From Lacunisphaera sp. (GTDB lineage Bacteria > Verrucomicrobiota > Verrucomicrobiia > Opitutales > Opitutaceae): a stretch of DNA of 35,725 bases. Positions within the stretch are counted from its first letter, which is position 1; every line of letters starts with the position of its first letter. This document shows positions 7,831-23,499 of the stretch, one piece after another. Under the pieces are notes generated by a model. The model was given only the letters and a program-made list of their open reading frames with translations, made no database searches and was not told the origin of the DNA. The stretch is taken from the NCBI GenBank assembly GCA_029945855.1, contig JAQSDJ010000109.1, forward strand, positions 1-35,725. The letters run 5' to 3'. A program made the position numbers and the translations under genes.

Positions 7831-7834
7831 TTTT

Positions 7835-7909: not shown

Positions 7910-7913
7910 TTTT

Positions 7914-7989: not shown

Positions 7990-7990
7990 C

Positions 7991-8080: not shown

Positions 8081-8086
8081 CATTTT

Positions 8087-8172
8087 GGAGAGTAAAGCCG
8101 CGAAGCGCGGTGATCGGTTGGAAGCCGATTCGAGCCGCAAGGCTTGTGGGGCAGGACCACTGCTCTCCGCCA
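8087..8172 (+). tRNA. tRNA-Ser (GGA), class II
   Basis: Acceptor GGAGAGT/GCTCTCC, anticodon loop TTGGAAG, variable arm AGCCGCAAGGCT, G73, CCA. T-loop GGCAGGA has G54 and G55, a form shared only with tRNA-Ser(GCT). Confidence 0.83.
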
Positions 8173-8177
8173 TCCTT

Positions 8178-8266
8178 GGAGAGTGAACCCGTCAAGGCGC
8201 GGGCGCTGCCTCGAAAGCAGACGGACCGGTTCGCCGGTTGAGGCGCAAGTCCTCCGCTCTCCGCCA
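8178..8266 (+). tRNA. tRNA-Ser (CGA), class II
   Basis: Acceptor GGAGAGT/GCTCTCC identical to the previous Ser gene, anticodon loop CTCGAAA, long variable arm ACCGGTTCGCCGGT, T-loop CGCAAGT (C54, G55), G73, CCA. Confidence 0.85.
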
Positions 8267-8270
8267 CTAT

Positions 8271-8344
8271 TGGCTCGTAGCTCAAAAGCAGAGCGCTCGC
8301 CCGATAAGCGAGTGACGACGGAGCGTTACCGTCCGGGCCAACCA
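8271..8344 (+). tRNA. tRNA-Ile (GAT)
   Basis: Acceptor TGGCTCG/CGGGCCA, anticodon loop CCGATAA with C33, T-loop AGCGTTA (A54, G55, U58), A73, CCA. D-arm GCTC/GAGC with loop AAAAGCA. Confidence 0.88.
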
Positions 8345-8349
8345 TTTTG

Positions 8350-8436
8350 GGAGGGTTAACTCCGGAAGCCGGAGGCCGCGGTGCTAACGCGAGCGGCGAT
8401 TCTGTCGCTGAGGGGCGGGACCTCAACCCTCCGCCA
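8350..8436 (+). tRNA. tRNA-Ser (GCT), class II
   Basis: Acceptor GGAGGGT/ACCCTCC, anticodon loop GTGCTAA, long variable arm, T-loop GGCGGGA (G54, G55), G73, CCA. Confidence 0.85.
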
Positions 8437-8437
8437 T

Positions 8438-8511
8438 TGCCGGGTCGTCTAACAGCAGGACGGCGGTCTCTGAAACCGCAGATGCACGTGCGAGTCGTGC
8501 CCCGACAGCCA
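8438..8511 (+). tRNA. tRNA-Gln (CTG)
   Basis: Acceptor TGCCGGG/CCCGACA with the Gln-type U1-A72 pair and one C-A mismatch. Anticodon loop CTCTGAA, T-loop TGCGAGT (G55), G73, CCA. Confidence 0.88.
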
Positions 8512-8599
8512 ACTGCCTTTGCCCGTTCCCAGTCGGAACGTGGCATGCAACGACCGAGTCCCTCCCGGGACAGAGGTCTCAACACCAAGGACAAACACC
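8512..8599 (+). other. Spacer with two hairpins before a peptide ORF
   Basis: GTTCC/GGAAC (8525-8539) and GTCCC/GGGAC (8558-8571) form small hairpins. AAGGA at about 8587-8591 is a plausible SD for the peptide ORF that follows. No tRNA can be folded here. Confidence 0.4.
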
Positions 8600-8695
8600 A
8601 TGAAAGCCATCACGCTCGTGGTCGCTTGGGCTGCGGTGGCTGGTATCGTGCTGATCACGCGAGTTAGCTATCGAAGCCGTCGGGCGACTCGCTAA
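8600..8695 (+). CDS. 31-aa putative single-pass membrane peptide
   Basis: The ATG at 8600 is preceded by AAGGA about 9 bp upstream. The peptide begins MKAITLVVAWAAVAGIVLIT (a hydrophobic helix of about 18 residues) and ends with a basic tail rich in Arg. An intrinsic terminator lies 14 bp after the stop, so this could be a real small gene that closes the transcript after tRNA-Gln(CTG). The form resembles small membrane peptides such as type I toxins or stress peptides, but no family is recognised. A chance frame is possible because of its length. Confidence 0.5.
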   Translation: MKAITLVVAWAAVAGIVLITRVSYRSRRATR

Positions 8696-8708
8696 ACGAG
8701 CAAATCCA

Positions 8709-8738
8709 ACGGCCCGGAGGAATTCCTCCGGGCCGTTT
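8709..8738 (+). terminator. Rho-independent terminator, strong symmetrical hairpin
   Basis: A perfect palindrome in which ACGGCCCGGAGGAA pairs with TTCCTCCGGGCCGT (8709-8736), followed by TT. The T-run is short, but the stem is very stable and, being symmetric, could act in both directions. Confidence 0.75.
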
Positions 8739-8801
8739 CAATTTCCCAAATACCCGGTCCGGCGTCAGGCCGGCCGGGCTCGTGGACCAACAATGTCAGA
8801 T

Positions 8802-8876
8802 GCTCTGCAAGCATAGGCAGCGATGCAGCGGTCCCGTAAACCGCACAGGCCGGCGCAAGCCCGGCGCAGAGATCCA
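8802..8876 (+). tRNA. tRNA-Thr (CGT)
   Basis: Last tRNA, separated from the others by the terminator. Acceptor GCTCTGC/GCAGAGA with a first-position G-A mismatch, anticodon loop CCCGTAA with C33, T-loop CGCAAGC (C54, G55), T73 like the other Thr tRNAs, CCA. The right inverted repeat starts at the next base. Confidence 0.8.
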
Positions 8877-8901
8877 GTTTCGCAAAAAAGAACACACACC
8901 G
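8877..8901 (-). repeat. Right copy of perfect 25-bp inverted repeat
   Basis: Exact reverse complement of 2772-2796. It abuts the CCA end of tRNA-Thr(CGT), as attachment sites at tRNA 3' ends often do, and lies 57 bp before the HNH gene. Confidence 0.9.
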
Positions 8902-8957
8902 ATGTTGGCTGAGACCAGGCCCGGCGTGAGCCCTCTCATTTTCAACCAACTCCTCCC

Positions 8958-9593
8958 ATGAACACCGATCTCCTCGAAAAGCCCATCGTCCTGTCGCTCA
9001 ACCGGGCGTGGCAGGTCATTGGCCATCGCACCGTCAAGCAAGCGCTCATCGCGCTCAATGGTGGTTCGGCCGGCCTTCCCCCTGCCATGGGCCTCGATAT
9101 CGCCTATCCGAAGCTGGAGGATGACTCCTGGAACTTCGACCGGCCGCTCTACTTGAATCCGGTTGCCTGGGACGAGTGGATCAAGCTGCCCGTGCGTGAA
9201 TTCGATTTCGTCGTCTCCACGCCGAAGCTCCACATCAGGGTTCCCACCGTCATCATCTCGACGCAGTTCGACCGCATGCCGATGCGCGTCCCGCGCGTCA
9301 GCCGCACGGCGATCTTCGCCCGGGATGGGGGTGTCTGCCAATATACCGGCGAGCATGTCGGCAAGAACGGCGGCAACCTCGATCACGTCATTCCGCGCGA
9401 TCGTGGTGGTCGCGACTCGTTTGAGAACCTCGTTTGGGCCAAGCGGGAGATCAACTCCCTCAAGGCCAACCGACTCCCGCACGAGGCCGGCCTCCGCCTC
9501 CTCCGCCGTCCGAAGGCGCCGGCGACCCTTCCGGTCGCCGCGACGATCCGCGAACCCAAACACCCCGACTGGCGCCACTTCCTCACGCTCTGA
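8958..9593 (+). CDS. HNH-domain protein, probable nuclease
   Basis: 211 aa. The N-terminal half (VLSLNRAWQVIGHRTVKQAL) matches the conserved front domain of stand-alone bacterial HNH proteins of the VLNxxWxPIxVxxxxRA type. The HNH core spans about 116-180: RTAIFARDGG, LDHVIPRDRGG (H143), ENLVWA (N157) and KANRLPHEAG. The family normally has two CxxC zinc pairs; here only C127 remains (CQYTG, and AKREIN where CxxCN is expected), so structural zinc is probably lost. It opens the HNH-sigma-RtcB gene group downstream of the tRNA array. In this setting it may process array transcripts or cut DNA, as a mobility endonuclease would; neither is shown. The start follows a CTCCTCCC stretch with no SD. 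Confidence 0.82.
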   Translation: MNTDLLEKPIVLSLNRAWQVIGHRTVKQALIALNGGSAGLPPAMGLDIAYPKLEDDSWNFDRPLYLNPVAWDEWIKLPVREFDFVVSTPKLHIRVPTVIISTQFDRMPMRVPRVSRTAIFARDGGVCQYTGEHVGKNGGNLDHVIPRDRGGRDSFENLVWAKREINSLKANRLPHEAGLRLLRRPKAPATLPVAATIREPKHPDWRHFLTL

Positions 9594-9604
9594 CTGCAGC
9601 CCGC

Positions 9605-9635
9605 AGGTGAGGGAGTCGACAGACTCGGTTCACCT
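9605..9635 (+). other. Hairpin between HNH and sigma-factor genes
   Basis: AGGTGA/TCACCT and GAGTC/GACTC form a coaxial 11-bp hairpin with loop GACA, interrupted by a small GG/GG internal loop. It sits 12 bp after the HNH stop and 36 bp before the sigma-factor ATG. No T-run follows; an RNA processing or stability element is possible. Confidence 0.45.
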
Positions 9636-9671
9636 GTAGTCCGAATTCCTTCTGCGTGCTGTTGAACTCCC

Positions 9672-10373
9672 ATGACCTGCGTCAATTCCAGTCCCATCGT
9701 CCTCGCCGACCTCCTCGACATCGTGGAGACCGCGCTGGCTACGGTCTCACGCCGTCTTCCCGCGCACGTCGGCCGCGACGACCTGGCTTCCGTGGGCAAG
9801 CTGGCGTTGATCACCCTCGCCGCGCAAACCACCGGCCCCTCCACGGAGGTCCGCGCCTATTGCTTTGTGCGCGTCCGTGGTGCCATGCTGGACGAACTGC
9901 GTCGCATCGATGCCCTCCCGCGCAACCGCCGGGATGACGCCAATGCCGTGAGCCGGGCCCAATCCGCGCTCGCGACCAAGCTCGGACGTGCGCCAAGCAC
10001 CGACGAACTGGCCGCAGCGACCGGTCTGTCAGTTGCCACCACTCATTCAGCCGTGTCTGCACTCGCCGCCGAAGCCGAGATGCTGGAGATTGAGTGGGGT
10101 TCGCTCCCTGACACTGACAGCCCGAGCCCGGTCGAAATGGTCGAGCAATCCGACTGGCAGGCCAACCTGCGGGCGGCACTCGCGCGCCTCCCGGTCAACC
10201 AGGCGCTGGCGGTGCGCCGCTACTACCTTGAGGACGGCACTCTCGACGACATCGCCGCCGAGCTCGGTGTGTCGCGCGAACGCGCCCGCCAGATTCGCGA
10301 AGCGGGCGAGAAGAAGCTCCGCGCCGACCTGGTCGTCCTTTCCCTGTGGCAAACACTATTTGCTCACCCCTGA
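9672..10373 (+). CDS. Alternative sigma factor of the FliA/WhiG (sigma-28) type
   Basis: 233 aa, typical for group 3 sigma-70 factors. Region 2 includes AYCFVRVRGAMLDELRRID (about 62-80), region 3 includes RAPSTDELAAATGLS (about 104-118), and region 4 ends with LGVSRERARQIREAGEKKLR (about 199-218), the -35-binding HTH. Between HNH and RtcB there is no flagellar context, so this looks like a dedicated regulator of the RNA cassette. That would replace the sigma54 activator RtcR, which controls rtcBA/rsr operons in Proteobacteria. No anti-sigma gene is visible. Start at 9672; a 13-bp gap separates its stop from the RtcB ATG. Confidence 0.88.
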   Translation: MTCVNSSPIVLADLLDIVETALATVSRRLPAHVGRDDLASVGKLALITLAAQTTGPSTEVRAYCFVRVRGAMLDELRRIDALPRNRRDDANAVSRAQSALATKLGRAPSTDELAAATGLSVATTHSAVSALAAEAEMLEIEWGSLPDTDSPSPVEMVEQSDWQANLRAALARLPVNQALAVRRYYLEDGTLDDIAAELGVSRERARQIREAGEKKLRADLVVLSLWQTLFAHP

Positions 10374-10386
10374 CATAATCCATCAA

Positions 10387-11937
10387 ATGCAACCCAACTT
10401 CTCAGTGAATATGGAAATCAAAGCCCGCGATCTGATCGCAGCCGGCTGGCACGAAGGCCGCCGACTGGGCCCGGCCTTGCGCCGTGCCCGCGATCTTGAG
10501 TCGTCGGGCCTGTCGCGCCCGGACGTGCTTACTCAGCTCGAAGCGGAATTCCCGAAGCAATTGGCCGTGATCCTGCCGCGCTATGAGCCGGCTCCATTGG
10601 CCGAAGCCATCGAGGCCGACACCCTGGAGGAGCAGGCCAATGTCGTCACGGCACGCGCGCGCATGCACGAGTTGCTCCACGTTCCCGTGGTTCAGCGCGG
10701 CGTCATCATGCCGGATGCCTGCCCAACGGGCGGTGGTCGCGCGACCATCCCGGTTGGCGGCGGCATCGAGGTTGCCAACGCGATCATTCCCGGAGCGCAC
10801 TCGGCCGATATCTGCTGCTCGATGTTCGCGTCCTTCTTTCCCGCCAATCATCCGGTTGGCGAAATGATGGATCATCTGCAGAAGGTGACGCATTTCGGGC
10901 CCGGCGGCCGCCCGCGCGGCTATCAACTGTCCTCGCCCGTCCTCGAGGAGCCGGTCTGGGACAATCCGTTCCTCACCGGGCTGCGCAGCCGCGCCCAGGA
11001 TTTCCTCGGCACCCAGGGTGACGGCAACCACTTCGCCTATGTCGGCCGCATCGAGTTTTCCGAGCCGCAGCGCGCCGCGATCGAAGCGGCCGGATACACC
11101 GACCTGTCCGACTGGATCACCCGCCGTGAAGGCAAGTTCAACGTCCTGGTGACCCACCACGGCTCGCGTGGTCTGGGCGCTGATCTCTACAAGCGAGGGC
11201 AGGTGGCCGCCCGCAAGTGGTGCGACGAAAACGCCAAGGACATTCCTGATGCGGCCGCCTGGCTGCCGGGCGACTCGCCCGAGGGCCTGGCCTATTGGGA
11301 CGCCCTGCAGTATATCAGCCGCTGGACGCGCGAGAACCACTCCTTGATCCACGCCGCCTTGCTGCGTCGTCTGGGGCAGCGCGCGCTCGTGCAGATCGGC
11401 AACGAGCATAATTTCGTCTGGAAGCGCGGCGACTCGTTCTTCCACGGCAAGGGCGCCACCCCGGCCTGGCGGGACACCGAGGGCCGTCCGCTGCTCGGCC
11501 TCATCCCGCTCAATATGGCGCGTGAAATCCTGCTCGTGCTCGGCTCGAACAACAACGACTACCTGTCGTTCTGCCCGCACGGGGCCGGACGCAACCTGTC
11601 GCGCTCGGCCATGCTGCGTCCCTACAAGGATGCCGAGGGCCTGATTGATCCGTCGCGCGTGCAGCAATCGCTGGCCGAAACCACGGCCGGGCTCGACATC
11701 CGCTGGTTCTGCGGCGGCCCCGACCTCTCGGAATCACCGCTCGGCTACAAGGACGCGACCAAGGTGAAGGCGCAAATCACGCGTTTCGGTCTCGCGACCG
11801 TTGTTGGCGAGATCCAGCCGCAAGGCTGCATCATGGCCGGCGAATCACCGGAGCCGCCATGGATCCGCGCCCGCCGCGAGAAGAAGGCCCGCCACAAGGA
11901 AGAACGTCGCGAAGGCCAGGCCGAGATCGAGACTTGA
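10387..11937 (+). CDS. rtcB: RtcB-family RNA ligase
   Basis: 516 aa from the ATG at 10387 (a second in-frame ATG is at 10411; the frame stays open further upstream only because it overlaps the sigma gene). RtcB joins 2',3'-cyclic phosphate and 5'-OH RNA ends through a guanylylated histidine with GTP and Mn2+. Family motifs: PDACPTGG (109-116), metal ligands in SADICCSM (139-146), GDGNHF (211-216), THHGSRGLG (256-264), GNEHNF (338-343), HGKGAT (353-358) and the guanylylation motif CPHGAGRNLSR with H398. The sequence diverges from the classical E. coli type (GDGNHF, GSNNNDY instead of GSMGT-SY), so it is probably a distinct RtcB subfamily. Its context with Ro60, Y RNAs and tRNAs strongly suggests repair of cleaved tRNAs. 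Confidence 0.92.
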   Translation: MQPNFSVNMEIKARDLIAAGWHEGRRLGPALRRARDLESSGLSRPDVLTQLEAEFPKQLAVILPRYEPAPLAEAIEADTLEEQANVVTARARMHELLHVPVVQRGVIMPDACPTGGGRATIPVGGGIEVANAIIPGAHSADICCSMFASFFPANHPVGEMMDHLQKVTHFGPGGRPRGYQLSSPVLEEPVWDNPFLTGLRSRAQDFLGTQGDGNHFAYVGRIEFSEPQRAAIEAAGYTDLSDWITRREGKFNVLVTHHGSRGLGADLYKRGQVAARKWCDENAKDIPDAAAWLPGDSPEGLAYWDALQYISRWTRENHSLIHAALLRRLGQRALVQIGNEHNFVWKRGDSFFHGKGATPAWRDTEGRPLLGLIPLNMAREILLVLGSNNNDYLSFCPHGAGRNLSRSAMLRPYKDAEGLIDPSRVQQSLAETTAGLDIRWFCGGPDLSESPLGYKDATKVKAQITRFGLATVVGEIQPQGCIMAGESPEPPWIRARREKKARHKEERREGQAEIET

Positions 11938-12116: not shown

Positions 12117-12857
12117 ATGTTTCAACGCTTCACTAATCTCGTCCGTGGTTTTTTCAATGCGATCGCTTCCGGTTTCGAGAAGCGCAATCCCGAGCTTCTC
12201 CTGGAAAACGCCAAGGAAGATTTGCGCAAGAACGTCATCGCGATGCGCAATGGTCGCTCCCAACTGGCGGCGCAATCCGCAAGCCTCCAGCGCCAGATCG
12301 CCGAAATGAGAATCCGCGAGCGCGAGCTCGAGGGTCGCGTGCAGGTTTTCATCGACGCCGGTAAGGACGAGCAGGCGGGCGACGCGGCGCTTGAACTGCA
12401 GACGATCAAGGATGACCTCGCCAAGAATACCGATCAGCTGACTCAGAACGAGTCGGCCTACAAGGAATTCACGACGATGTGCGCCACGACGGAGAAGGAG
12501 CTGATGCGCAAGATCCAAGAATATGGGCGCATGATTTCCGAAGCAAAGGCCAAAGAGGCCGCCGCCGAGGCCGCGGAATTCATCAGTGGTGCCATCAGCA
12601 ATACCACGGGAGCGGGCGACAACCTCGACCGACTCAAAAACGTGGTGACGGAAAAACTCGACAGCGCGACCGGCCGGTTGCGCGCGGCGCAGGATACCTC
12701 GGGCTTCGCCAATGTGAAAGCCATGCAGGAGGAGAGGCAATTGCGTGCTTCCGCCGCCCTGGCCAGCTTCAAGGCAGCCAAGGGCCTCAAGGCGGCGACG
12801 ACCGCACCAGGCAAGACGGAGACGGCCAAGCCTACGATGACTTCCGAATCAGCCTGA
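12117..12857 (+). CDS. pspA: PspA/IM30 (Vipp1) family membrane-stress protein
   Basis: 246 aa, within the family range (220-260). It starts MFQRFTNLVRGFFNAIASGFE, an amphipathic membrane-binding helix typical of PspA. A long coiled coil (about 25-200) rich in Glu, Lys, Ala and Leu follows, with an Ala/Lys/Thr-rich low-complexity tail. PspA proteins are ESCRT-III-like and polymerise on damaged membranes. The start at 12117 gives the canonical N-terminal helix; the longer open frame upstream overlaps the rtcB tail. It begins a run of membrane-associated genes on the same strand, led by an AAA ATPase that could remodel PspA polymers as Vps4 does for ESCRT-III. The 179 bp before it hold no clear promoter. 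Confidence 0.88.
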   Translation: MFQRFTNLVRGFFNAIASGFEKRNPELLLENAKEDLRKNVIAMRNGRSQLAAQSASLQRQIAEMRIRERELEGRVQVFIDAGKDEQAGDAALELQTIKDDLAKNTDQLTQNESAYKEFTTMCATTEKELMRKIQEYGRMISEAKAKEAAAEAAEFISGAISNTTGAGDNLDRLKNVVTEKLDSATGRLRAAQDTSGFANVKAMQEERQLRASAALASFKAAKGLKAATTAPGKTETAKPTMTSESA

Positions 12858-13047
12858 GCGGACGCGGCTGTAGGGACTCTCCGAATGATAGCCGTCGCCA
12901 TTCCCTCCATCGCGTGGGGTTTGTGCGAAAAGGTGAAACGTGTAATAGCTCCGTGGGATTGTAGTATGTTGGAGCATCGATTTGCTGTAGGATTCATCCG
13001 CACATCCGGCTTTCCCGGACACCCTTTCCACAGTCCCATTCACTCGC

Positions 13048-14763
13048 ATGTCATCCTGGGTTGATACCATTCGCGCGCATTACGGCAGCGATTCGTCCCG
13101 TCAGTTCATTCTTTATGGCAACACCGAGGATATTTATTCGCTCACGTCGGCCAGAGGCCTGGGGAAACGCGAGACTCCACTGGTGCCGCTTTCCGACTAC
13201 CTGCAAAAGGAATTGCTGGGCGAATTTGAAGTGGTGATCGCTTACGGAGCCGCAACCGGCATCCAGGTGCTCAAGGGCAAGGAGCTGACGAGTCAGTGGA
13301 CGGAGATCGCCCGGTTAGGCAATGCGGTCACTCATCGTCAAGCCGCGGAAACACTCAAGGTGTTGCTGTTGTTCCTCGACCACCTCTCCGCCCAGCTCAA
13401 GAAGTCGATCAGCGCGGCCTGCATCATCGAGCACGCCGAATTGGTGGTGCCGAACGACGGCTCGCGCCTCCAGCAGGATGTCAGCACCACGGCGGCCATC
13501 ATCCGCTCGTGGAGCCAGCCCAGCCTGAACCAGTCATTCACCTTCACCTCGTTTCTCATCACCCGGAATCTCACGGAACTGAACACCCTGGTTAGTCAGA
13601 ATCCGCGGGCGGCCTTGGTCGAGGTGCCCATGCCTTCCGAGGGGGACATCCTGGGCGAATTGGAAAGGGATTCCGCCTACAAGCCCGTCCTCGGTGAATT
13701 CCAATCCGATCTCCCGGGCCTAGCCAAGCGGCTCGGCGGGGCGAATCTCCAGGGATTGATCCAAACCTTGCGGCTCGAAGCCTACAACAAACGCGTGATC
13801 ACGGGTCGGACGCTGGTCGAAATGCGCAAGAAGCTGGTCGAGCGCCAGGCCGGCGGCGGGCAGGAAGGCAAACGCGTGGTTGAGTTTCTCACCTCCGAGA
13901 AAACGCTGGACCAGCTTCTCGGTCAGCCGGCGCTCGTGGAACTGTTTCGCCAAGACCTTAAGTTATTGCGCGCCGGTCGCACCGACCTCTGTCCCATGGG
14001 TTATCTGCTGAGCGCGCCCGTTGGTTGCGGCAAGAATCATCTGGTCGAATGCCTTGCGGGTGAGGCGGGGATTCCCGTCGTGGTCATCAATAATTTCCGG
14101 GACCGGTGGGTCGGCAGCACCGAAGGAAACGTCGAGAACGTGTTCCGGCTCATCCGCGCGCTGGGCCAGTGTTTCGTATTTGTCGACGAAGCCGACCAGA
14201 CGTTGGGCAAGCGCGACAGCGGCAGTGACACGGGTAGCGGCGTCGACGGTCGTGTCTATTCCATGTTTGCGTCATTCATGGGTGACTCGCGCAACCAGGG
14301 TAAGGTCATCTGGCTCCTGGCCTCCAGCCGGCCCGACAAGATCGAGGTGGATTTCAAACGCCCTGGCCGCATTGACACGAAGGTGCCGATCTTCCCCTCG
14401 CTCACCGCTGAAGCCGGTTACTTTCTGCTGCGGACACTCCTGGCCGCCAAGAACATTGCCCTGCCCGAGGCCTTGCCGGCCGGCTTGGCCATACCGGATC
14501 TGCTGACACCCGGCGCGGCGCGCGCCTTGGTCGGCCAGCTGGCCCGGGAACTGGCTTTGGGGGCGACTGACGGAGGCGCGCCAGATCCGCTGGCGGCACT
14601 CACCGTCGTCCTCCGTAATTACTTTCCTCCGGTGCCGTTGGCGACAATCGCCTTTCAGATGCAGCTCGCGGTCAACGAGACGACCGATGCAAAGCTGATC
14701 CCCCCGGGGGTCCCGGTGAAGATTGCCCAATACCTTTCGGTCAAACCCCAGATCATCCCATGA
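13048..14763 (+). CDS. AAA-family ATPase (CDC48/FtsH-like core), PspA-associated
   Basis: 571 aa. The N-terminal 300 residues are a poorly conserved domain (QFILYGNTEDIYSL), perhaps a degenerate second ATPase-like fold. The C-terminal AAA core has Walker A APVGCGKN (323-330), Walker B FVFVDEAD (376-383) and the second region of homology ending KRPGRID with the probable arginine fingers. Walker A has N330 where Thr or Ser normally coordinates magnesium, which may weaken hydrolysis. Its 3' end overlaps the next gene by ATGA, so translation is coupled. Next to pspA, it is the best candidate for a PspA-remodelling ATPase. Confidence 0.85.
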   Translation: MSSWVDTIRAHYGSDSSRQFILYGNTEDIYSLTSARGLGKRETPLVPLSDYLQKELLGEFEVVIAYGAATGIQVLKGKELTSQWTEIARLGNAVTHRQAAETLKVLLLFLDHLSAQLKKSISAACIIEHAELVVPNDGSRLQQDVSTTAAIIRSWSQPSLNQSFTFTSFLITRNLTELNTLVSQNPRAALVEVPMPSEGDILGELERDSAYKPVLGEFQSDLPGLAKRLGGANLQGLIQTLRLEAYNKRVITGRTLVEMRKKLVERQAGGGQEGKRVVEFLTSEKTLDQLLGQPALVELFRQDLKLLRAGRTDLCPMGYLLSAPVGCGKNHLVECLAGEAGIPVVVINNFRDRWVGSTEGNVENVFRLIRALGQCFVFVDEADQTLGKRDSGSDTGSGVDGRVYSMFASFMGDSRNQGKVIWLLASSRPDKIEVDFKRPGRIDTKVPIFPSLTAEAGYFLLRTLLAAKNIALPEALPAGLAIPDLLTPGAARALVGQLARELALGATDGGAPDPLAALTVVLRNYFPPVPLATIAFQMQLAVNETTDAKLIPPGVPVKIAQYLSVKPQIIP

Positions 14764-15002
14764 GCATCAAAGCGACCAAGCTGCAGAAATCCGTCATCAA
14801 TTCCGGCAAGAAGATCGGCCTCTTGGTCGAGAAAGACGGCCCAACCGATCAGGCGATCAAGCGCAGCACGAAAGCCGCCGCCACGCTCGTCAATGATGGC
14901 GAGAAGCAGCTCAAACGCCTGGCGCGAGGAGCCCGGTCGACGGTCGACGAACTGCGCGCCAAGCTTCATGCCGCCACGGCGCCCCGCCCGGGAAAGAAAT
15001 AG
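14760..15002 (+). CDS. Small basic protein of unknown function
   Basis: 80 aa, Lys/Arg/Ala-rich, predicted helical (KLQKSVINSGKKIGLLVEK and DELRAKLHAATAPRPGKK). The start overlaps the ATPase stop by 4 bp, and the stop is 3 bp before the rhomboid gene, so it is in the middle of an operon. No family is recognised; it could be an adaptor for the ATPase. Confidence 0.7.
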   Translation: MSIKATKLQKSVINSGKKIGLLVEKDGPTDQAIKRSTKAAATLVNDGEKQLKRLARGARSTVDELRAKLHAATAPRPGKK

Positions 15003-15005
15003 GAC

Positions 15006-15605
15006 ATGAATCGGATCCGCCTGGGTGCGCCCTGGACGTTGCTGATTGCCGTCGGTTGCGTCGCCGGCACCTACCTGCCTGGGGCCGGCATGTTCGGCAT
15101 CAGCGGTGGCCTGGGCTCCCTGTTGCTGCCGCTGACGTGGCTGAAGCTATTCACCTGGCCATTCATTCACGCCGACACCGGGCACCTTTTGGGCAACATG
15201 ATGTTATTCTTGCTGCTGTCTCCCGGCCTGGAGGCAAAACAAGGTTGGGTCGAATATCTGTTCTGCCTGTTGCTCACGGCCGTGATCGTGGGCGTCGGAC
15301 ATCTTGCCTTTGGCCGCAGCGACACGGCTCTGGTGGGCGCCAGCGCATGGGTTTTCATGATGATCATCCTCGCGACCTTCACGGCGGGTGAAGTCCGCAC
15401 GATTTCCGTCCCGACCCTGATTGTGGCCGTGCTTTACGGCTGGCAGGAAATCAGGGCGGCAATGACCCCGAACCACGTCTCGCAATTTGCCCATCTGCTG
15501 GGTGGAGCGTGCGGTCTGGTCTACGGCCTGCTGGGCAGCGGCCATCGTCTCCCCGAAACCTCCGGCGCACTTTCCCACGGCGCCGATCGCATCCGGCCAT
15601 TTTGA
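15006..15605 (+). CDS. Rhomboid-family intramembrane serine protease
   Basis: 199 aa with about six hydrophobic segments. It carries the rhomboid signatures HADTGHLLGN (H55, H60, N64), GASAWVF with catalytic S113, and QFAHLLGG with catalytic H163, so it should be active. Rhomboids cleave transmembrane segments. In this operon a substrate could be the single-pass substrate-binding/OmpA protein encoded next. The start is 3 bp after the previous stop, indicating co-translation. Confidence 0.9.
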   Translation: MNRIRLGAPWTLLIAVGCVAGTYLPGAGMFGISGGLGSLLLPLTWLKLFTWPFIHADTGHLLGNMMLFLLLSPGLEAKQGWVEYLFCLLLTAVIVGVGHLAFGRSDTALVGASAWVFMMIILATFTAGEVRTISVPTLIVAVLYGWQEIRAAMTPNHVSQFAHLLGGACGLVYGLLGSGHRLPETSGALSHGADRIRPF

Positions 15606-15641
15606 TTCGCATAGAAACTTCGCCCAACCACAAATATCATC

Positions 15642-17261
15642 ATGAAAAAAGCCCTCATTGCTTTTCTTTTCCTGGGCCTGCTTGGCCTGGGTTATTGGCG
15701 CTGGCAGTCGCAGCAGAAGCCCGCGACTCAGGTCGCCTCGAACCCGTCGGCTCCGGCCGCAGCGACGGCACCCAAGGCACCGATCAAAGGCATCGCCTCC
15801 ACCCTCGACGAGCCGGCCGCGGTCATGCCGCCGGCGACCTATGCCTACAAGGACAACATCGTTGAGGTCGAACTCAGCGAGTATGCCGGTTACGCGGGCC
15901 TGATCTACGCCAATGGCGGATTGGAGCCGAACGAGAATTCGTATTTCTTCAAAACGCACGGCTTCAAGCTGAAGATCGCCCTTTCAGAATCCGAGAACTG
16001 GTCACCCCTGAACAGCGGCCGGCTGGCGGTCACGGCCACGACGGCTGATGTGCTGGCGGTCTACGCGAACCAGATGCAGGTCGTGGTGCCGGTCCAGACC
16101 TCCTACTCGCGCGGGGCGGACAGCATCGTCGTCCGGGAATCGATCAAGCGCATCAACGACCTGAAAGGAAAAATCCTTGTGGCCAGCCAGTTTGCTGAAT
16201 CCGAGTTCTTCCTGCGCTACCTGGCGCAGGAGGCGAACCTTCCCGTCTATAACCTCCAAGAGAGGGAAAAGCCGAAGTCCGACGGCGTGAATCTGCACTA
16301 TGCCGACGATCCTTTCATCGCCGGGGATGTCTTCGCGGCCAATCTCGATGAATACGCCGGTTTCGTCGGCTGGGAGCCGAAGGTGAGCGAGGTGGTGGAG
16401 CAGGCTCACGGGAAGGCCCATGTGCTCGTGGACAACCGCAATCTTCTGATCATCGCCGATGTCTTGATGGTCAACAAGGGCTTTGCCGCTCAGCACCCCG
16501 AAGTGGTGAAGGGATTGGTCGACGGCACGCTCTATGGCAACGATGTCGTGCGCACCGATCCCACCAAGGCGTTTGCCGTGCTCAAGAAGGCTTTCAAATG
16601 GGATGAAGCGGACAGCAAGGCGAACCTGGCGAAGGTGCATCTTTCCAATCATCCCGAAAACCTCGCGTTCTTTGGCGGGGCCGCCGATGCGGCCGGCAGC
16701 TTCAGTTCCATCTATCAAACCAGTCTCTACGCCTACGCGAACTTCGTGAAACACAACGTGGGGCCGGACCGGTTCATCAATACGCAGCCCTTGGAAGCGG
16801 TGAAGGACCATTACACCAAACAAGTGGCCAATATCGAACCGATCCGGACCACGCAGAACGCGGGCATCGAGGGAAGCCCCTTGCTCAGCCGCAACGTGCG
16901 GTTTCTGTTTGAGCCCAACTCCTATCAATTGGCGGAGTCCGCGCAAAATTCAAAATACTATGTCGATATCAAGCGCCTGCTGGATGTGAGTCCGGGCTCG
17001 ACGGTTCTGTTGCGTGGCCATGTTGACAATGGCCAGGTGGAGGATTTCCGGAAGAAAGGCGGCGACGCCCTGGTGCGGCGCATGGGCTTGAGCGCGGTGC
17101 AGCTCTCCCGCGACCGGGCCAATGCGGTCAAAAGCAAATTGATGAAGGACTATGGCATTGGGGCCGAACGGATCGAGATCGTCGGTCGCGGCTGGGATGA
17201 GCCGGTGGGCACCAGCGACGAGAACCGCCGCGTCGAGGTCTACTGGTTTACAGTCGAGTGA
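15642..17261 (+). CDS. Membrane-anchored substrate-binding protein fused to OmpA peptidoglycan-binding domain
   Basis: 539 aa. Residues 4-20 (ALIAFLFLGLLGLGYWR) are a single N-terminal membrane anchor, followed by an Ala/Pro linker. About 65-400 resemble the solute-binding fold of ABC transporters of the NitT/TauT or phosphate type. About 415-539 are an OmpA-like domain (NVRFLFEPNSYQL, LLRGHVDNG, LSRDRANAVKSKL, RIEIVGRGWDEPVG, NRRVEVYW) that binds peptidoglycan. It probably bridges membrane and cell wall in the PspA/AAA module. No ABC permease is nearby, so it is more likely a sensor or scaffold than a transporter part. Confidence 0.85.
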   Translation: MKKALIAFLFLGLLGLGYWRWQSQQKPATQVASNPSAPAAATAPKAPIKGIASTLDEPAAVMPPATYAYKDNIVEVELSEYAGYAGLIYANGGLEPNENSYFFKTHGFKLKIALSESENWSPLNSGRLAVTATTADVLAVYANQMQVVVPVQTSYSRGADSIVVRESIKRINDLKGKILVASQFAESEFFLRYLAQEANLPVYNLQEREKPKSDGVNLHYADDPFIAGDVFAANLDEYAGFVGWEPKVSEVVEQAHGKAHVLVDNRNLLIIADVLMVNKGFAAQHPEVVKGLVDGTLYGNDVVRTDPTKAFAVLKKAFKWDEADSKANLAKVHLSNHPENLAFFGGAADAAGSFSSIYQTSLYAYANFVKHNVGPDRFINTQPLEAVKDHYTKQVANIEPIRTTQNAGIEGSPLLSRNVRFLFEPNSYQLAESAQNSKYYVDIKRLLDVSPGSTVLLRGHVDNGQVEDFRKKGGDALVRRMGLSAVQLSRDRANAVKSKLMKDYGIGAERIEIVGRGWDEPVGTSDENRRVEVYWFTVE

Positions 17262-17304
17262 TCCGGCCAGAGCACGCGGACCACTCCCTTTGCCGTCTTT
17301 TTCG

Positions 17305-18000
17305 ATGAAGCCTCTTTTATCCCTGCTGTTGATCGGGATGTTCACGGGAGTTTGTTTTTGCCAATCAACCGGCGCCGCAGCCGGAGCGGGTTCGCCGATG
17401 GCCGCAGACGATTTCGAGGCCTTGGGCATGAAGGTGAGCGTGACGATCGTCTTCGACACCTCGGGCAGCATGAAAGAACGCAACAAACTGGCGATGGCCA
17501 AGCAGGCCTTTAGCTGGTGGTTGGAAAATGCGCCCAAACAAACGATCGTGCGTTGGTCGCTCTGGGCCTTCGATGCCCGGCAACGCGACGGCATCAACTT
17601 GGTGGATCGGAAGGCCAACGCGATCGATGAGGTGCAGGCGAAAATCGACCGCTTTGCCGCCAACGGCGGAACACCCCTAGGGAAGACCATCACCAAGGTA
17701 ACCCGCATCATCGATGCCGAAAACCGGAAGGCGGAGGAGGGCAAGGCCGACATTCTCCGCCAGATCGTGCTGATTTTCACCGATGGGCAGGACTCGGACC
17801 TCCGCGTGCCCGCCATGCAGGCCACCATCCTGCGCCTGCGCGATGCCGGGGCGGAGGTGTTCTCCATCGGTTATCAGGGCGAGGGGGATTATCTCGCCAA
17901 GGTGTCGGACAAATTCATCATGGTAGATGACGAGAAACAGCTGAAGTCTGGTCTCTCGGAGTTCACCTATTTTATCGAAAAATCAGCCCCCCTAAAGTGA
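17305..18000 (+). CDS. Secreted von Willebrand factor A domain protein
   Basis: 231 aa from the ATG at 17305, which gives a signal peptide (MKPLLSLLLIGMFTGVCFCQS). The VWA domain spans about 45-225 with an intact MIDAS (FDTSGSM, then NGGTPLGKT and FTDGQDSD), so it should bind a metal and mediate protein contacts outside the membrane. It starts 43 bp after the OmpA-fusion gene and ends one base before the next ATG. The longer frame that opens at 17152 overlaps the previous gene and is not used. Confidence 0.85.
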   Translation: MKPLLSLLLIGMFTGVCFCQSTGAAAGAGSPMAADDFEALGMKVSVTIVFDTSGSMKERNKLAMAKQAFSWWLENAPKQTIVRWSLWAFDARQRDGINLVDRKANAIDEVQAKIDRFAANGGTPLGKTITKVTRIIDAENRKAEEGKADILRQIVLIFTDGQDSDLRVPAMQATILRLRDAGAEVFSIGYQGEGDYLAKVSDKFIMVDDEKQLKSGLSEFTYFIEKSAPLK

Positions 18001-18001
18001 C

Positions 18002-18847
18002 ATGAGTCTCTGGCAACGATTGTCGCGGGCCGCGCCGTATCACGCGCATTTCTTTGCCTCGACGAACCATGCTTGGGTGCTCCTCGTCACGGTCGGAGTC
18101 GGCGTCGCGGTCGCCACCCCCCTTTCCGTGGTCGCAGGCATCGCCGCTTACGGCCTGGGCATGATTTTCCTGCCGGATCTTGCGGTTTTCCGCAGGGGCG
18201 TTGATGCCAGGAGCGAGGCCGAAGCCGCGGCCCGGCAGCAGGAGGAGTCCTCGGCCAAGGAACACGTGCGTTCAACCCTCCTGCAGAAACTGTCCCCCAA
18301 GGTCCGGGCCCGGTGGCAGAACTTCTCGACTCTGTGCCTGGAACTTCAGGCCAAGCTGGCCGCCGCCGGCAGCGACAGCCTGATGCAGGAGAACTCGCTC
18401 GCCAAGGTTGCCGACAGCCATCTGCTGCTGCTGGCGATGGATGCAGACATTCGCGGCTACCTGGATTCGGCCGAGAGTTCGACCGCCCTGAAAACACGAG
18501 CCGACGACATTCAGGCGGAGATCGACCGGTTGCACAAGCGGACTGACCTTTCCGAGGTGGAACAACGATTGGTGCTGTCCAAGGAGGAAACACTCCGGAA
18601 TCTCCAGCAACAGGCGGAGCAGGCCAAGCGCATGCAGTTGAATCTCGAGCTGGCCCAGTCGGAGCTACAGCGGTTGGAAAGCCAAATATCATTCCTGCGT
18701 GCCGAACTCATTTCGACCCCGGCGAATCAATTGTCGAACCGGTTGGGCGAAACACTTATTCAGGTCGAAGCATCCCAGCGCGTGTTACAGGAAGGCGGGA
18801 TGGTCAACGCACCGGACCTAAACACGCTGTTGGGCGAAAGCGCATGA
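18002..18847 (+). CDS. Membrane coiled-coil protein of unknown function
   Basis: 281 aa. Two hydrophobic segments at about 24-42 and 44-62 (AWVLLVTVGVGVAVATPL and VVAGIAAYGLGMIFLPDL) form a hairpin. A mostly helical cytoplasmic part follows, with a coiled coil at about 160-235 (LNLELAQSELQRLESQISFL). No known family. As last gene of the PspA/AAA run, it may anchor PspA or the ATPase. Confidence 0.78.
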   Translation: MSLWQRLSRAAPYHAHFFASTNHAWVLLVTVGVGVAVATPLSVVAGIAAYGLGMIFLPDLAVFRRGVDARSEAEAAARQQEESSAKEHVRSTLLQKLSPKVRARWQNFSTLCLELQAKLAAAGSDSLMQENSLAKVADSHLLLLAMDADIRGYLDSAESSTALKTRADDIQAEIDRLHKRTDLSEVEQRLVLSKEETLRNLQQQAEQAKRMQLNLELAQSELQRLESQISFLRAELISTPANQLSNRLGETLIQVEASQRVLQEGGMVNAPDLNTLLGESA

Positions 18848-19159: not shown

Positions 19160-19849
19160 ATGAGTTTCACCTACGAATACGCCCATCCTGCCGTCACCGT
19201 CGACTGTGTCGTTTTCGGCTACGACGCCACCGACCTCAAGGTCCTGCTCATCCAGCGCAAACTGGAACCGTTCAAGGGCCGCTGGTCGCTGCCGGGTGGT
19301 TTCGTGCAGATCAATGAAAGCCTGGAGGACGCCGCCCGCCGGGAACTGAGCGGTGAGACTGGCCTGGGGAAACTCTTTCTGGAGCAACTCTACACCTTCG
19401 GGGAACCAAAGAGGGATCCCCGGGAACGCGTCATCAGCGTTGCCTACTACGCATTGGTCAAGCTCACCGACCATGCCCTGCAGGCTGCGAGCGATGCCGA
19501 GGATGCCGCCTGGTTCCCCGTCGCCGAACTGCCGAAGCTGGGCTTTGACCATGAGCGCATCGTCGAGACGGCTCTGCGCCGGCTGAAGGCCAAGGTGCGC
19601 TATGAGCCGATCGGTTTCGAACTGCTGCCGGAAAAGTTCACGCTGGGGGAGCTGCAGCGCCTCTACGAGACTGTGCTGGAGCAGTCGCTGGATAAGCGGA
19701 ATTTCCGCAAGAAGCTGCTCGGGATGGAACTCCTCGAGGCCCTGGACGAATACCAGCGCGACGTGGCCCACCGGGCTGCGCAGTTCTACCAATTCAACCG
19801 CGCCCGCTATGAGCAGCTCCGCAAGAGGGGCTTCAATTTCGAACTCTGA
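19160..19849 (+). CDS. nrtR: NrtR-type Nudix-domain transcriptional regulator
   Basis: 229 aa. The N-terminal Nudix domain (about 10-140) and C-terminal winged helix (about 150-229, including [12 protein letters not shown] and NFRKKLLGM) are the NrtR layout: an ADP-ribose-responsive repressor of NAD genes. The Nudix box reads [17 protein letters not shown] then LSGETG; G65 replaces a catalytic Glu (RELxEETG expected), so it should sense rather than hydrolyse ADP-ribose. It heads an operon with SPFH and NAD-kinase-like genes and has two palindromic operators in its promoter, implying autoregulation. Confidence 0.85.
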
Positions 19850-19877
19850 CCCAATTCATCCTCAACCCACTACTGCC

Positions 19878-20897
19878 ATGCTAGGTCTACGCTTCATCAA
19901 GGTCCAACCGACCAACTACCTCCTGCAATACCAGGGCGGTCGCATCGTGCGCGAGGGCGCCGGCCTCTCTTTCTTTTACTTTGGACCGCGCAGCTCGCTG
20001 GTGGCGATCCCCACGGCCAGCACCGAGGAACCCTTCATCTTCGAGGAAACGACCGCCGACCACCAGAATGTCACCATCCAGGGTCAGGTCACCTATCGCG
20101 TGGCCGACCCCAAGAAGCTCGCGGCCCTGATGAACTTCACCCTGAGCGCCAACGGTCAGAACTACATCTCTGACGATCCCCAGAAGCTGCCGCAGCGCTT
20201 GATCAATATCGTCAACGTTCACGCCCGGGCCGAAATCCAGAGCCTCCCCCTGCGGCAGGCCGTCAAGGCATCAGATACCTTGGTGGCCGCTCTCCGGCCC
20301 AAGCTCACCGGCGCCCCGGAAGTGACGGCGCTGGGCCTGGAGATCCTCGGCTTCTCGGTGCTGGCCATCAAGCCCACGCCCGAGACTGCCAAGGCCCTGG
20401 AAGCGGAAACCCGCGAGCAACTCCTGAAGGAAGCCGACGAGGCCATCTACCGGCGCCGCAACTCGGCTGTCGAGCAGGAGCGCGCGATCAAGGAGAACGA
20501 GCTGAACACCGAGATCGCCGTGGAAATGAAGAAGCGGCAGATCCGCGAGACCAAGATGGACGCCGAGCGGGCGGTCCAGGAGAAACAGCGCTTGCTCCAC
20601 GAGGCCGAGATGGTCGCCAGCATTGCCCTCGAGGAAAAGAAGAAGGAGCTCGTGGACCTCACTGGCCAGAACACCAAGGCCGAGGCGGATGCCCGGGCCT
20701 ACGGCATCGAGGCGACGATGAAGGCCCTGGGCACGGCGGACGCCAAGGTGCTGCAGGCGCTCGTCAACAGCGGCATGAAGCCCGAGCAGCTGATCGCGGT
20801 CGCCTTCCAGGAAATCGCCGGCCGCGCCGACAAGATCGGCCAGCTCAACATCTCGCCCGACCTGCTCCGCGAGCTGATGGGCCAACCCAACGGCTGA
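19878..20897 (+). CDS. SPFH/Band-7 (flotillin-like) membrane scaffold protein
   Basis: 339 aa from the ATG at 19878 (the frame is open further upstream only inside nrtR). The SPFH domain covers about 20-190, without an obvious N-terminal transmembrane helix. A long charged coiled coil (about 170-270, rich in EAE, EKQ and KKE repeats) and the alanine-rich flotillin-like end follow. SPFH proteins form ring-like membrane microdomain scaffolds. It lies between an NAD-sensing regulator and an NAD-kinase-like protein, so it may scaffold membrane-linked NAD metabolism. It also complements the PspA module just upstream. Confidence 0.85.
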   Translation: MLGLRFIKVQPTNYLLQYQGGRIVREGAGLSFFYFGPRSSLVAIPTASTEEPFIFEETTADHQNVTIQGQVTYRVADPKKLAALMNFTLSANGQNYISDDPQKLPQRLINIVNVHARAEIQSLPLRQAVKASDTLVAALRPKLTGAPEVTALGLEILGFSVLAIKPTPETAKALEAETREQLLKEADEAIYRRRNSAVEQERAIKENELNTEIAVEMKKRQIRETKMDAERAVQEKQRLLHEAEMVASIALEEKKKELVDLTGQNTKAEADARAYGIEATMKALGTADAKVLQALVNSGMKPEQLIAVAFQEIAGRADKIGQLNISPDLLRELMGQPNG

Positions 20898-20898
20898 C

Positions 20899-21852
20899 AT
20901 GCAAAGGCTGACCGAGAACAAGATTGTCCTCGTCGTCCGGGAAACGCGCCTGGAGGAACTAAAGGCGCGCTTCAACACGGTCAGCCAGGCGCGCTTCTAC
21001 GTCGAGCAGGTCGGCGGCGACTTCCACGACTACGAAAACGAGGACGCCGCCTACCAGAAAGCCCAGAAGCAAGCGCGCGACATTCTCGATCTCCTCGGCC
21101 GGGTGCAGGTGGTCCACCGCCGGTTCCTGCCCAACTTCATGTTCGGTCCCGACGACCTCGTGGTCGCCATCGGCCAGGACGGATTGGTGGCCAACACGCT
21201 CAAGTATCTCGATCGGTTGCCGCTGATCGGCGTAAATCCGGACCCCGCCCGGTATGATGGCCAGCTCCTCCCCTTCGAGGTCGGCGACCTCGCCAAGATT
21301 GTGCCGGAGGTTTTCCGCCGCAAACGCGGCCTAAAAACGGTCACCATGGCCAAGGCCACGCTGAACAACGGCCAGACGATCCACGCGGTCAACGATCTGT
21401 TCATCGGCCCCAAGTCCCACGGTTCAGCCCGCTACACCATCCGGCTCGACGAGCAGGCGGAGCGCCATTCCTCCAGCGGCGTGATTGTTTCCACCGGCCT
21501 TGGATCCACCGGCTGGTTGACGAGTCTCATCACCGGGGCCAGTGCGGTCGCGGCCGCCTTCAAGAGCCAGCAGATGGGACGCCGGGCGGCCGCCCCCGCA
21601 CCCACTCCCCGCTTTCCCTGGGATGCCCAGCACCTGTTCTTCACGGTCCGCGAGCCATTCCCGAGCAAAACCTCGACCGCGACCCTGGTGTTCGGGCGCG
21701 TCACGGCCGATCACCCACTCAAGATCGAGTCCCACATGCCCGAACGCGGCGTCATTTTCAGCGACGGCATCGAAGCGGACTTCCTCGAATTCAACGCCGG
21801 CGCACATGCCACCATCGGCCTAGCGGAGCGCAAGGGCTTGTTGGTGGAGTGA
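20899..21852 (+). CDS. NAD-kinase-family protein
   Basis: 317 aa, starting one base after the SPFH stop. NAD kinases phosphorylate NAD to NADP. The fold is recognised by the segment VVAIGQDGLVANTLKYL (88-104, GGDGT-like), the following PLIGVNPDPARYDG, and SGVIVSTGLGSTGWLTSL (the STPTGSTAY-like loop). The catalytic motif is GQDGL instead of GGDGT, and the second loop also departs from consensus, so substrate or activity may differ. Regulation with NrtR supports a role in NAD metabolism. Confidence 0.8.
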   Translation: MQRLTENKIVLVVRETRLEELKARFNTVSQARFYVEQVGGDFHDYENEDAAYQKAQKQARDILDLLGRVQVVHRRFLPNFMFGPDDLVVAIGQDGLVANTLKYLDRLPLIGVNPDPARYDGQLLPFEVGDLAKIVPEVFRRKRGLKTVTMAKATLNNGQTIHAVNDLFIGPKSHGSARYTIRLDEQAERHSSSGVIVSTGLGSTGWLTSLITGASAVAAAFKSQQMGRRAAAPAPTPRFPWDAQHLFFTVREPFPSKTSTATLVFGRVTADHPLKIESHMPERGVIFSDGIEADFLEFNAGAHATIGLAERKGLLVE

Positions 21853-21861: not shown

Positions 21862-23499
21862 TCAGGCGTTGCCCCGCAACGGCTTCTCGGCGACCAGGAC
21901 CATATTGGTCGGCGGATACTCGATCTGCTGACCGGTGCCGGCGGCGAACAACCGCGCCTGGTTTCGGTAACGGTTATCCACAATCCAAGGGTTGGCGTAG
22001 ACCCGGGACGCCGACTTACCCTGGGCGCCTTCCTCCAGGATATTGAAGCCCACTTCCCGGAGACCCTCCTTCCACCGGGAATAGCTCCAGAAGCAGAACT
22101 CCTCGTTCATCTCAGAGCACCAGTTGTCCGTGTAGTCCTTCTTGGAGAGGAATTCCGCGGCCGACCGCAGTGGCAACTCAAAGCCTTCGGGCGTCTCTCG
22201 GCAGGCCACGCACGTCTCCATGGTTCGCCGTCCCGAAGTGCGCAAGTCGCGGAGGAAATCCTCCAGAAAGAGCCGGAATCGGCTCCGTGTGGAGAGTGTC
22301 TTGAGGAGTTCGGCCGGGCGGCTGGGCGGCACATCTGCGGGGGCGCGCTCTTCACCGTCGTCCGCACGGCAACGCAGCACGACCATCGTGTCGCCATTCT
22401 CGGGTCCAACCACATCGCGCACGATCAGGCGTCCGCCAGGCTGGAGTTGCGCATACTTTTGCGCCAAGTAGCCGCGCACGGTCTTCTCCTGCTCGGCATA
22501 GCTCCAGAGTTCGTGCAGCGTGCTGTTGCAGATCGTCGTGTCGACGGACTCGGGCTCGAAAATGGGGTCGAGGAGATTCCGCAGATAGAAGCAAGTGTAG
22601 ACGTTCCCGAACTCACCGGAGCGCTTCCGTTCGTGGAATCGGGCGGCAAACTCAGCCGACAGGTCAATGCCGAACAGATCGGAATCGGGAAAATCCCTGG
22701 CAATCTCCACCAGCAGCGCGCCGTCGGCACAACCCTCGTCCACGATACGCCCCGGGCGGATGGCTTCCCGGATATCCTGATATTTATTCCGGATGGTCCC
22801 GTTCATACCCCGGGCGTAGGTGTTGTAGTTACGTTTCTCGGTGAGGCTCCCCTCGTGGTTGGTCAGCGGATCGCGATAGATCCGCGTAATCCGCCGCGGA
22901 ATCTCCGGCGAATCAGCAAAGAGTGAGCGTGTAGCCGGGGACAAGTCGCTTTGCACCACCGCCAAGTCCTCCCACCGGCCGCTGCCGGCGCCGATAGCGC
23001 GGATAATTTCGATAGGGACAGCTGGCTTGGGCGCGAGCGCGACATGCTCCGCCGGGGCGACGGCGAAGCCTAACTGCACATACAATGAGGCGACCTCCGG
23101 AGTTGAGCAGAGCACGACGGTATTGTCCGGCCGCAGGGTTTCGTCGTGCTCGGTCTGGGCGACGATCTCCTTCAAGGTGAAGGCGGCGAAGTTAGCCGTG
23201 TGGCCGTAGTGGGGGATGCCGACAATCCGGTAGGTAAAGGCCACGGTGCGCTGGAGTTCGCGAGCGAAGCGATCTACACCGATGGCGCGGACATGAAACG
23301 GGATGGGATTGTAGCGGGAATTGTCCTGATTTGATGAGGTGATCGCGAAAATCACCCGATCCAACCGATCCTTTGGCACAGTCACCCCGGCCTGGAGGGC
23401 AGGAATTTTACCCGGCTCACGGCCGAGGATTCCCTGCAGATATTCTGCCTGGAAGCGGGTGTTCACCAAATGCCGACCCGGAAATAGCAATGTGCTCAT
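21862..23499 (-). CDS. Two-domain protein: nucleotidyltransferase-like N-terminus and SAM-dependent methyltransferase
   Basis: 545 aa, convergent with the NAD-kinase gene (9 bp between stops). The C-terminal half is a class I methyltransferase: motif I VDEGCADGALLVEI (253-266), then LFGIDLS, and ICNSTLHELWSY. The N-terminal about 160 residues (FPGRHLVNTRFQAEYLQG and TSSNQDNSRYNPIPFHVRAI) resemble the Rossmann-like nucleotidyltransferase fold of NMN adenylyltransferases, but the HxGH motif is not intact, so this is a guess. The CVACRE and NWCSEMNEEFCFW segments may bind metal. The methyl acceptor is unknown. Confidence 0.72.
   Translation of the reverse strand: MSTLLFPGRHLVNTRFQAEYLQGILGREPGKIPALQAGVTVPKDRLDRVIFAITSSNQDNSRYNPIPFHVRAIGVDRFARELQRTVAFTYRIVGIPHYGHTANFAAFTLKEIVAQTEHDETLRPDNTVVLCSTPEVASLYVQLGFAVAPAEHVALAPKPAVPIEIIRAIGAGSGRWEDLAVVQSDLSPATRSLFADSPEIPRRITRIYRDPLTNHEGSLTEKRNYNTYARGMNGTIRNKYQDIREAIRPGRIVDEGCADGALLVEIARDFPDSDLFGIDLSAEFAARFHERKRSGEFGNVYTCFYLRNLLDPIFEPESVDTTICNSTLHELWSYAEQEKTVRGYLAQKYAQLQPGGRLIVRDVVGPENGDTMVVLRCRADDGEERAPADVPPSRPAELLKTLSTRSRFRLFLEDFLRDLRTSGRRTMETCVACRETPEGFELPLRSAAEFLSKKDYTDNWCSEMNEEFCFWSYSRWKEGLREVGFNILEEGAQGKSASRVYANPWIVDNRYRNQARLFAAGTGQQIEYPPTNMVLVAEKPLRGNA

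Follow-up and report, generated by a model that had tools for sequence, protein, structure and literature searches.

The contig analyzed here (hereafter, the window) is an entire 35,725 bp contig of a draft Lacunisphaera sp. genome (Opitutaceae; GenBank assembly GCA_029945855.1, contig JAQSDJ010000109.1). Between positions 12,117 and 18,847 of its forward strand it encodes, in this order, a PspA/IM30 protein, an AAA ATPase, a small protein, a rhomboid-family protein, a substrate-binding/OmpA fusion, a von Willebrand factor A (VWA) protein, and a membrane hairpin plus coiled-coil protein (hereafter, CCTM). We consider this run to be probably a lineage-specific version of an envelope module that couples PspA to a double-AAA ATPase. 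The core operon was already published in 2024, which an earlier note on this DNA, made from the letters alone, had overlooked; the run is a variant of that published kind of system, and its mechanism, the binding of the PspA tail, and the loss of hydrolysis are predictions. All genes named in that note are present at the positions it gave. The gene run is confirmed as real, with a neighborhood beyond chance expectation and an AAA-PspA pairing that recurs in other families. Loci and genomes are coded L and G, respectively, and the nearest relative is L031 (genome G034). Protein families were scored against curated Pfam cut-offs for ten window proteins.

The AAA protein (571 amino acids, 13,048–14,763; PF00004, 76.3 bits, cut-off 21.2) contains two AAA domains and has full-length relatives. 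Its N- and C-terminal halves align in register, Walker B on Walker B (probability 69.7%, E-value 4.2e-5). The first domain (approximately residues 1–275; 13,048–13,872) is degenerate, with neither Walker A nor Walker B, and the second (approximately residues 276–520; 13,873–14,607) retains Walker B (VDEAD) and the arginine-finger region (RPGR). The predicted model matches the D1-D2 ATPases Drg1, p97, Cdc48, and Rix7 across both halves. Drg1 was the top Foldseek match (E-value 2.0e-18, 589 columns, template modeling [TM] score 0.43 by query), and in a VIA comparison Rix7 reached Z 20.2 (437 aligned, root-mean-square deviation [rmsd] 12.5) and Vps4 Z 19.1, the latter in the second domain only. 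On the half-to-half alignment and the two-half fold matches, an ATPase with a single AAA domain is rejected. On a weak model, two AAA domains with an inactive first copy are thus found, as in the published PspA-linked family. The earlier note was right in naming an AAA ATPase; it missed that a second, dead AAA domain is present. The protein falls short of the NCBIfam cut-off for CdvC (28.4 vs. 650 bits) and far short of that for CDC48 (55.4 vs. 802.65).

Instead of the GK[ST] of active AAA ATPases, Walker A of the second domain reads GCGKN (residues 326–330; 14,023–14,037), the atypical motif to which the earlier note had drawn attention and which L031 shares. Among 49 Walker A motifs (23 + 7 + 19, the last being those readable of 20 in the latest set), GKN was found in the window and L031, and the other 47 read GK[ST]; a trait of the whole family is rejected. 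A sequencing error was likewise rejected: L031 has the same five residues with a different Asn codon (AAT/AAC), is 72–73% identical to the window, and its AAA gene has diverged by a synonymous distance (dS) of 1.31 with a nonsynonymous to synonymous ratio (dN/dS) of 0.17. In the tree, the window and L031 form a clade (support 100/100) whose sister group is four Opitutaceae rows with GKT (100/99). GCGKN is derived in this lineage and selectively maintained. Walker B and RPGR are present in all 23 aligned rows, save that RQGR replaces RPGR in the canonical-type rows and in L066. The final residue of Walker A, Ser or Thr, ligates Mg. Because this residue, which helps Mg binding, is Asn in the window, we expect its AAA protein to bind nucleotide and to hydrolyze it slowly or not at all.

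To place the PspA-AAA pair among relatives, 57 AAA loci were examined, comprising 37 (window included) and a further 20. Full-length-type AAA matches were found in 20/387 genomes of the phylum and 20/252 of Opitutaceae (own genome included in both), and the canonical-type query matched in 40/365 genomes of the class. The distribution is patchy because 20 listed same-genus genomes in the Opitutaceae set gave no AAA match. At 37/57 loci (23/37 and 14/20) the stretch with the AAA gene also encodes an AAA-type PspA, and for 13 of the other 20 (G222, G295, G350, G281, G284, G287, G278, G688, G840, G790, G446, G575, and G606) PspA occurs elsewhere in the genome. Within the 252 Opitutaceae genomes, to which the controls for PspA without AAA are confined, canonical PspA was found in 15, including all 13 with a canonical-type AAA; G471 and G609 have canonical PspA and no AAA at the threshold used. 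The PspA-AAA partnership is well supported by this comparative evidence, and the parallel that the earlier note drew between PspA beside an AAA gene and ESCRT-III/Vps4 holds. Its expectation of a conserved gene order is borne out for partnership and content; the order itself varies among loci. CCTM is present at 29/57 loci (22/37 and 7/20) and the binding-protein/OmpA gene at 23/37 and 7/20. The VWA gene was detected at 9/23 loci with a looser profile (window, L031, L062–L065, and L068–L070) and in the window and L031 only in a stricter pass. L062, L064, and L065 have the order VWA, PspA, binding-protein/OmpA, ATP-binding cassette (ABC) permease, ABC ATPase, CCTM, AAA. These ABC genes are present in some relatives and absent from the window run. 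L031 keeps the window order from AAA through CCTM (AAA, small protein, rhomboid, binding-protein/OmpA, VWA, CCTM); with just 21 bp of contig ahead of AAA, its PspA and upstream region are cut off.

The window PspA (246 amino acids, 12,117–12,857), from the bacterial family akin to the membrane-bending ESCRT-III proteins, is a member of PF04012 (51.2 bits, cut-off 33.9, residues 2–223), and the profile of AAA-type PspAs matches the Vipp1/PspA structures 8qbr and 6zvr (best E-value 4.2e-6). With the query used, no PspA other than the window's own was found in its genome. At the C-terminus of AAA-type PspAs, a flexible linker leads to a short conserved peptide, which varies by AAA clade (RQKIAE, MGP, LPE). 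The motif [RK][QP]K[ILM], at most 12 residues from the end, is carried by 19/21 AAA-type PspAs (G446 included, whose PspA sits on a different contig from its AAA) and by 0/20 other Opitutaceae PspAs, and shuffled tails reach it at 0.3%; the Fisher p-value of 9e-10 overstates the difference, because the sequences are related and the counts are not independent. Later-fetched loci have the motif in 3/3 canonical PspAs, two of which share one genus. In the f23-type clade, [MLI][GA]P, a pattern picked after inspecting the sequences, occurs in 16/19 PspAs (MGP in 13) and in 1/20 controls (MGP in none). PspA2 tails end in LPE or LPEN in 8/10 distinct proteins, with IPE and LHE in the remaining two. 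The two AAA-type PspAs without the [RK][QP]K[ILM] motif are L060 and the window, whose tail (KPTMTSESA; 12,828–12,854) is degenerate. The tails recall those by which ESCRT-III recruits Vps4. The available text of PMC11237479, PMC10936438, PMC8281802, and PMC10272220 contains no mention of PspA tails, and we do not claim that they are unpublished.

Compared to known systems, the run is closest to the operons described by Ravi et al. in 2024 (PMC11237479), which, in the available text, join PspA to a two-AAA protein with an inactive first copy, ABC genes, and a PBPB-OmpA protein. PspA and the PBPB-OmpA neighborhood are both found in the window, and the two systems share PspA, an AAA protein with a dead first copy, and a fusion binding solute and peptidoglycan. 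The ABC permease and ATPase of the longer published operons are missing from the window run; this does not exclude membership, because the available text says that such genes 'may occur'. As far as that text goes, the window further differs in its rhomboid, small protein, VWA, and CCTM genes, in gene order, and in GKN. The main text of PMC11237479 uses none of the words rhomboid, vwa, and von Willebrand. Recurring VWA and CCTM genes and clade-specific PspA tails appear to be additions to the published core. ESCRT-III/Vps4 (Cdv) systems likewise have the gene of an ESCRT-III-superfamily polymer beside an AAA gene and a tail peptide after a flexible linker, but the window AAA lacks MIT and has two AAA domains rather than one. 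In archaea and eukaryotes the ESCRT-III MIM region binds Vps4, and past helix 5 no alignment of the families was possible, according to PMC8281802. The PspA tails are unlike the known MIM motifs (for the role of MIM, see PMC8281802 and PMC10936438). Archaeal Halo_adaptin loci similarly place a PspA-like protein upstream of an MIT-less Vps4-like ATPase, but there, in the available text of PMC10936438, the ATPase has a VAT-like N-terminal domain instead of a dead AAA domain, and the partners differ. Cdc48/p97, Drg1/AFG2, and Rix7 share the D1-D2 layout as judged by the predicted fold, whereas the first domain here lacks Walker motifs and there is no p97 N-domain. The classical Psp system and Bacillus subtilis YdjFGHI share PspA, and the window has an SPFH gene 1 kb further downstream, but outside the conserved run. 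No PspF, PspB, or PspC was found by Pfam among the ten proteins scanned.

The 2021 Cell study that assigned PspA/Vipp1 to the ESCRT-III superfamily describes it as unclear whether PspF acts on PspA in the manner of Vps4, or whether Vipp1 is helped by an equivalent ATPase (PMC8281802). The double-AAA family is a concrete candidate for the Vps4-like ATPase of PspA, the short PspA peptide is a candidate contact point with it, and GKN would be a naturally occurring change in Walker A by which nucleotide binding is uncoupled from hydrolysis.

In the mechanism that we propose, PspA would form a polymer at the inner face of the cytoplasmic membrane, as we infer from its family. The AAA protein would be a two-tier ring like that of Cdc48/Rix7, with a dead first tier and a motor second tier, and could grip the flexible PspA C-terminus to remodel or dismantle the polymer, as Vps4 does with ESCRT-III. 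The evidence behind this step is homology, co-occurrence, and the match between PspA tails and AAA clades. A membrane-anchored partner at the ring is the probable role of CCTM, and the periplasmic fusion, expected to hold peptidoglycan, and the VWA protein may monitor the envelope or a ligand. In the window lineage, the ABC permease and ATPase of some relatives are missing, the rhomboid and small protein are additional, and Walker A has Asn in place of Ser/Thr. Several observations weigh against this reading. The AAA model is weak (predicted local distance difference test [pLDDT] 62.9, predicted TM score [pTM] 0.50), and its full-length matches have high rmsd; PF00004 was the only family in the AAA protein at E-values up to 0.1, and no MIT domain, which could have read a tail, was found. 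The tail motifs were identified post hoc on related sequences, and another pattern for f23-type tails, [KR]x(1,2)[MILV][GAS]P, was rejected, with just 3/13 matches and 1/20 in controls. At 7/57 AAA loci no PspA partner is shown: PspA was not found in G034 (81% complete) and G513 (83% complete), G683 gave no match and G772 a weak one with a query from another PspA type, and G416, G333, and G752, which lie outside the PspA genome search, are counted among the seven. Comparison of CCTM with the PspA profile gave no match (probability 0.5%), and its structure search gave no significant fold match.

One rival, which we regard as unlikely, gives the AAA protein a general role at the membrane, as unfoldase or chaperone of a complex of ABC transporter and binding protein, with PspA as the lipid-facing scaffold rather than the substrate. 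ABC permease and ATPase genes indeed stand between PspA and AAA at L062, L064, L065, L069, L071, L224, L225, L228, and L241–L243, and the available text of PMC11237479 links the PspA/AAA system to solute transport. However, PspA is retained without transporter genes, in the window and other Opitutaceae loci, as well as where AAA lies apart from the operon, and its tail varies along with the AAA clade. A narrower possibility, which we take seriously even though we lean somewhat against it, concerns the window lineage alone: its AAA ring may be a non-hydrolyzing structural or regulatory ring (a pseudo-ATPase). GKN, together with loss of the first Gly of the motif, has been maintained over the dS given above and is fixed in the two-member clade, the first AAA domain is already dead family-wide, and the PspA tail is degenerate in the same genome, but Walker B (DEAD), RPGR, and the pore-loop region are intact, only two members of the GKN clade are known, and Asn might allow slow turnover. 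Going further, one could imagine a bacterial ESCRT-III/'IV' pair in which a dead-tier AAA ring reads clade-matched PspA tails, arisen separately from MIT-MIM, and which is rewired in the window (GKN, decayed tail, no transporter, added rhomboid) such that the ring becomes a nucleotide-locked clamp and membrane proteolysis, rather than ATP hydrolysis, ends the response; we think this improbable and offer it as speculation.

The last rival, proposed in the earlier note, joins the module to an RNA cassette directly upstream in one combined stress system, and we consider it very doubtful. The cassette (2,888–11,937) comprises an array of 24 tRNAs and TROVE/Ro-like, HNH, sigma-70-like, and RtcB genes, and lies on the same strand as the module, 179 bp away. 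Among Opitutaceae genomes, RtcB occurs in 13/20 with AAA and 27/232 without (Fisher p-value 2e-7), but this co-occurrence is confounded, without control for genome size or kinship, and is given little weight. Gene order does not support the link: RtcB is found at 1/57 module loci (the window alone; 1/37 and 0/20), tRNA in 0/29 other stretches, and the PspA module in 0/12 other RtcB stretches, which were fetched from the 40 Opitutaceae genomes with RtcB. In G099, AAA and RtcB share one contig but are ~265 kb apart. Within the 12 RtcB stretches, the tRNA array, HNH, sigma-like, and RtcB genes occur together in six and Ro in three. The cassette resembles the TrcR regulon of Anabaena, where a single repressor controls rtcB, an operon of 26 tRNAs, and genes for an HNH protein, a slipin, and an AAA protein (PMC10272220). 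This supports reading the cassette as a putative translation-stress set, possibly with the window SPFH gene and not with PspA.

In the module itself, PspA and AAA are spaced by 190 bp, and the genes from AAA to CCTM are tightly packed (overlap of 4 bp, then gaps of 3, 36, 43, and 1 bp). Because the counts of promoters (2 vs. 1.9) and terminators (9 vs. 8.5) are at the level of shuffled sequence, no operon boundary is claimed. The Lys/Ala-rich small protein (80 amino acids, 14,760–15,002) is below every Pfam and NCBIfam cut-off, occurs at the window and L031 only among the 57 loci, and evolves fast (145 amino acids in L031; dN/dS 0.61). The rhomboid-family membrane protein (199 amino acids, 15,006–15,605; PF01694, 67.7 bits, cut-off 22.6) misses the rhombosortase cut-off of TIGR03902 (30.8 vs. 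84 bits). Active rhomboid proteases are recognized by a GxSG serine and a histidine in transmembrane helix 6; the window protein has GASA at residue 111 and the His-containing AHLLGG at residue 162, and L031 has GASG. Only the window and L031 have such a rhomboid collinear with the AAA gene; weaker matches lie nearby at L088, L097, and L099 (E-values 2e-6 to 1e-20), two of them on the opposite strand. The N-terminally anchored fusion of an NMT1/SsuA-like substrate-binding domain with OmpA (539 amino acids, 15,642–17,261) scores 38.0 bits for OmpA (cut-off 27.2), 29.8 for NMT1 (cut-off 20.5), and 41.4 for NCBIfam SsuA_fam (below its cut-off of 163.5). At L031 (2,886–4,529), which is of low coverage, an in-frame stop splits this gene. 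The exported VWA protein (231 amino acids, 17,305–18,000; PF00092, 46.3 bits, cut-off 23.8) carries the DxSxS motif as DTSGS. CCTM (281 amino acids, 18,002–18,847), defined by an alignment of 16 members, belongs to no named family and is below every Pfam cut-off, and no Pfam family is common to more than 2/16 members; CCTM as a second PspA/Snf7 protein has no support from profile, Pfam, or fold searches. Between the window and L031, the fusion (dN/dS 0.16) and CCTM (0.21), like AAA, are under purifying selection.

A reading of the run as a defense system was rejected, with PADLOC giving just weak IetA matches to the AAA core (at most 24.9 bits) and no match to PspA, rhomboid, fusion, VWA, or CCTM. 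A single-sequence scan for viral matches gave none, and a scan of named genomes with the window protein returned one locus, in an Opitutaceae metagenome-assembled genome. An alignment-based scan of IMG/VR returned 17 loci, with PspA-type genes near AAA in L132 (the same match as L133), L134, L136, and L137 and not in L135. Most of the contigs L132, L133, L134, L136, and L137 also carry ABC genes; they are probably bacterial stretches, or phage-carried.

Downstream of the module, an NrtR-like Nudix regulator, an SPFH protein (start ~19,878), and a weakly NAD-kinase-like protein stand in a row (19,160–21,852). The 1.7 kb of contig that L031 retains past CCTM showed none of these three (NrtR, SPFH, NAD-kinase-like). 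A methyltransferase-domain protein follows on the opposite strand (21,862–23,499), and then a recombinase of the Phage_integrase family (23,871–24,566; 65.4 bits); the contig may be, or contain, a mobile island. Two possible defense genes encode a 1733-amino-acid protein with no family match and a P-loop recognized by eye (25,441–30,642) and a 988-amino-acid protein with weak HSDR_N and Avs2 matches (32,308–35,274).

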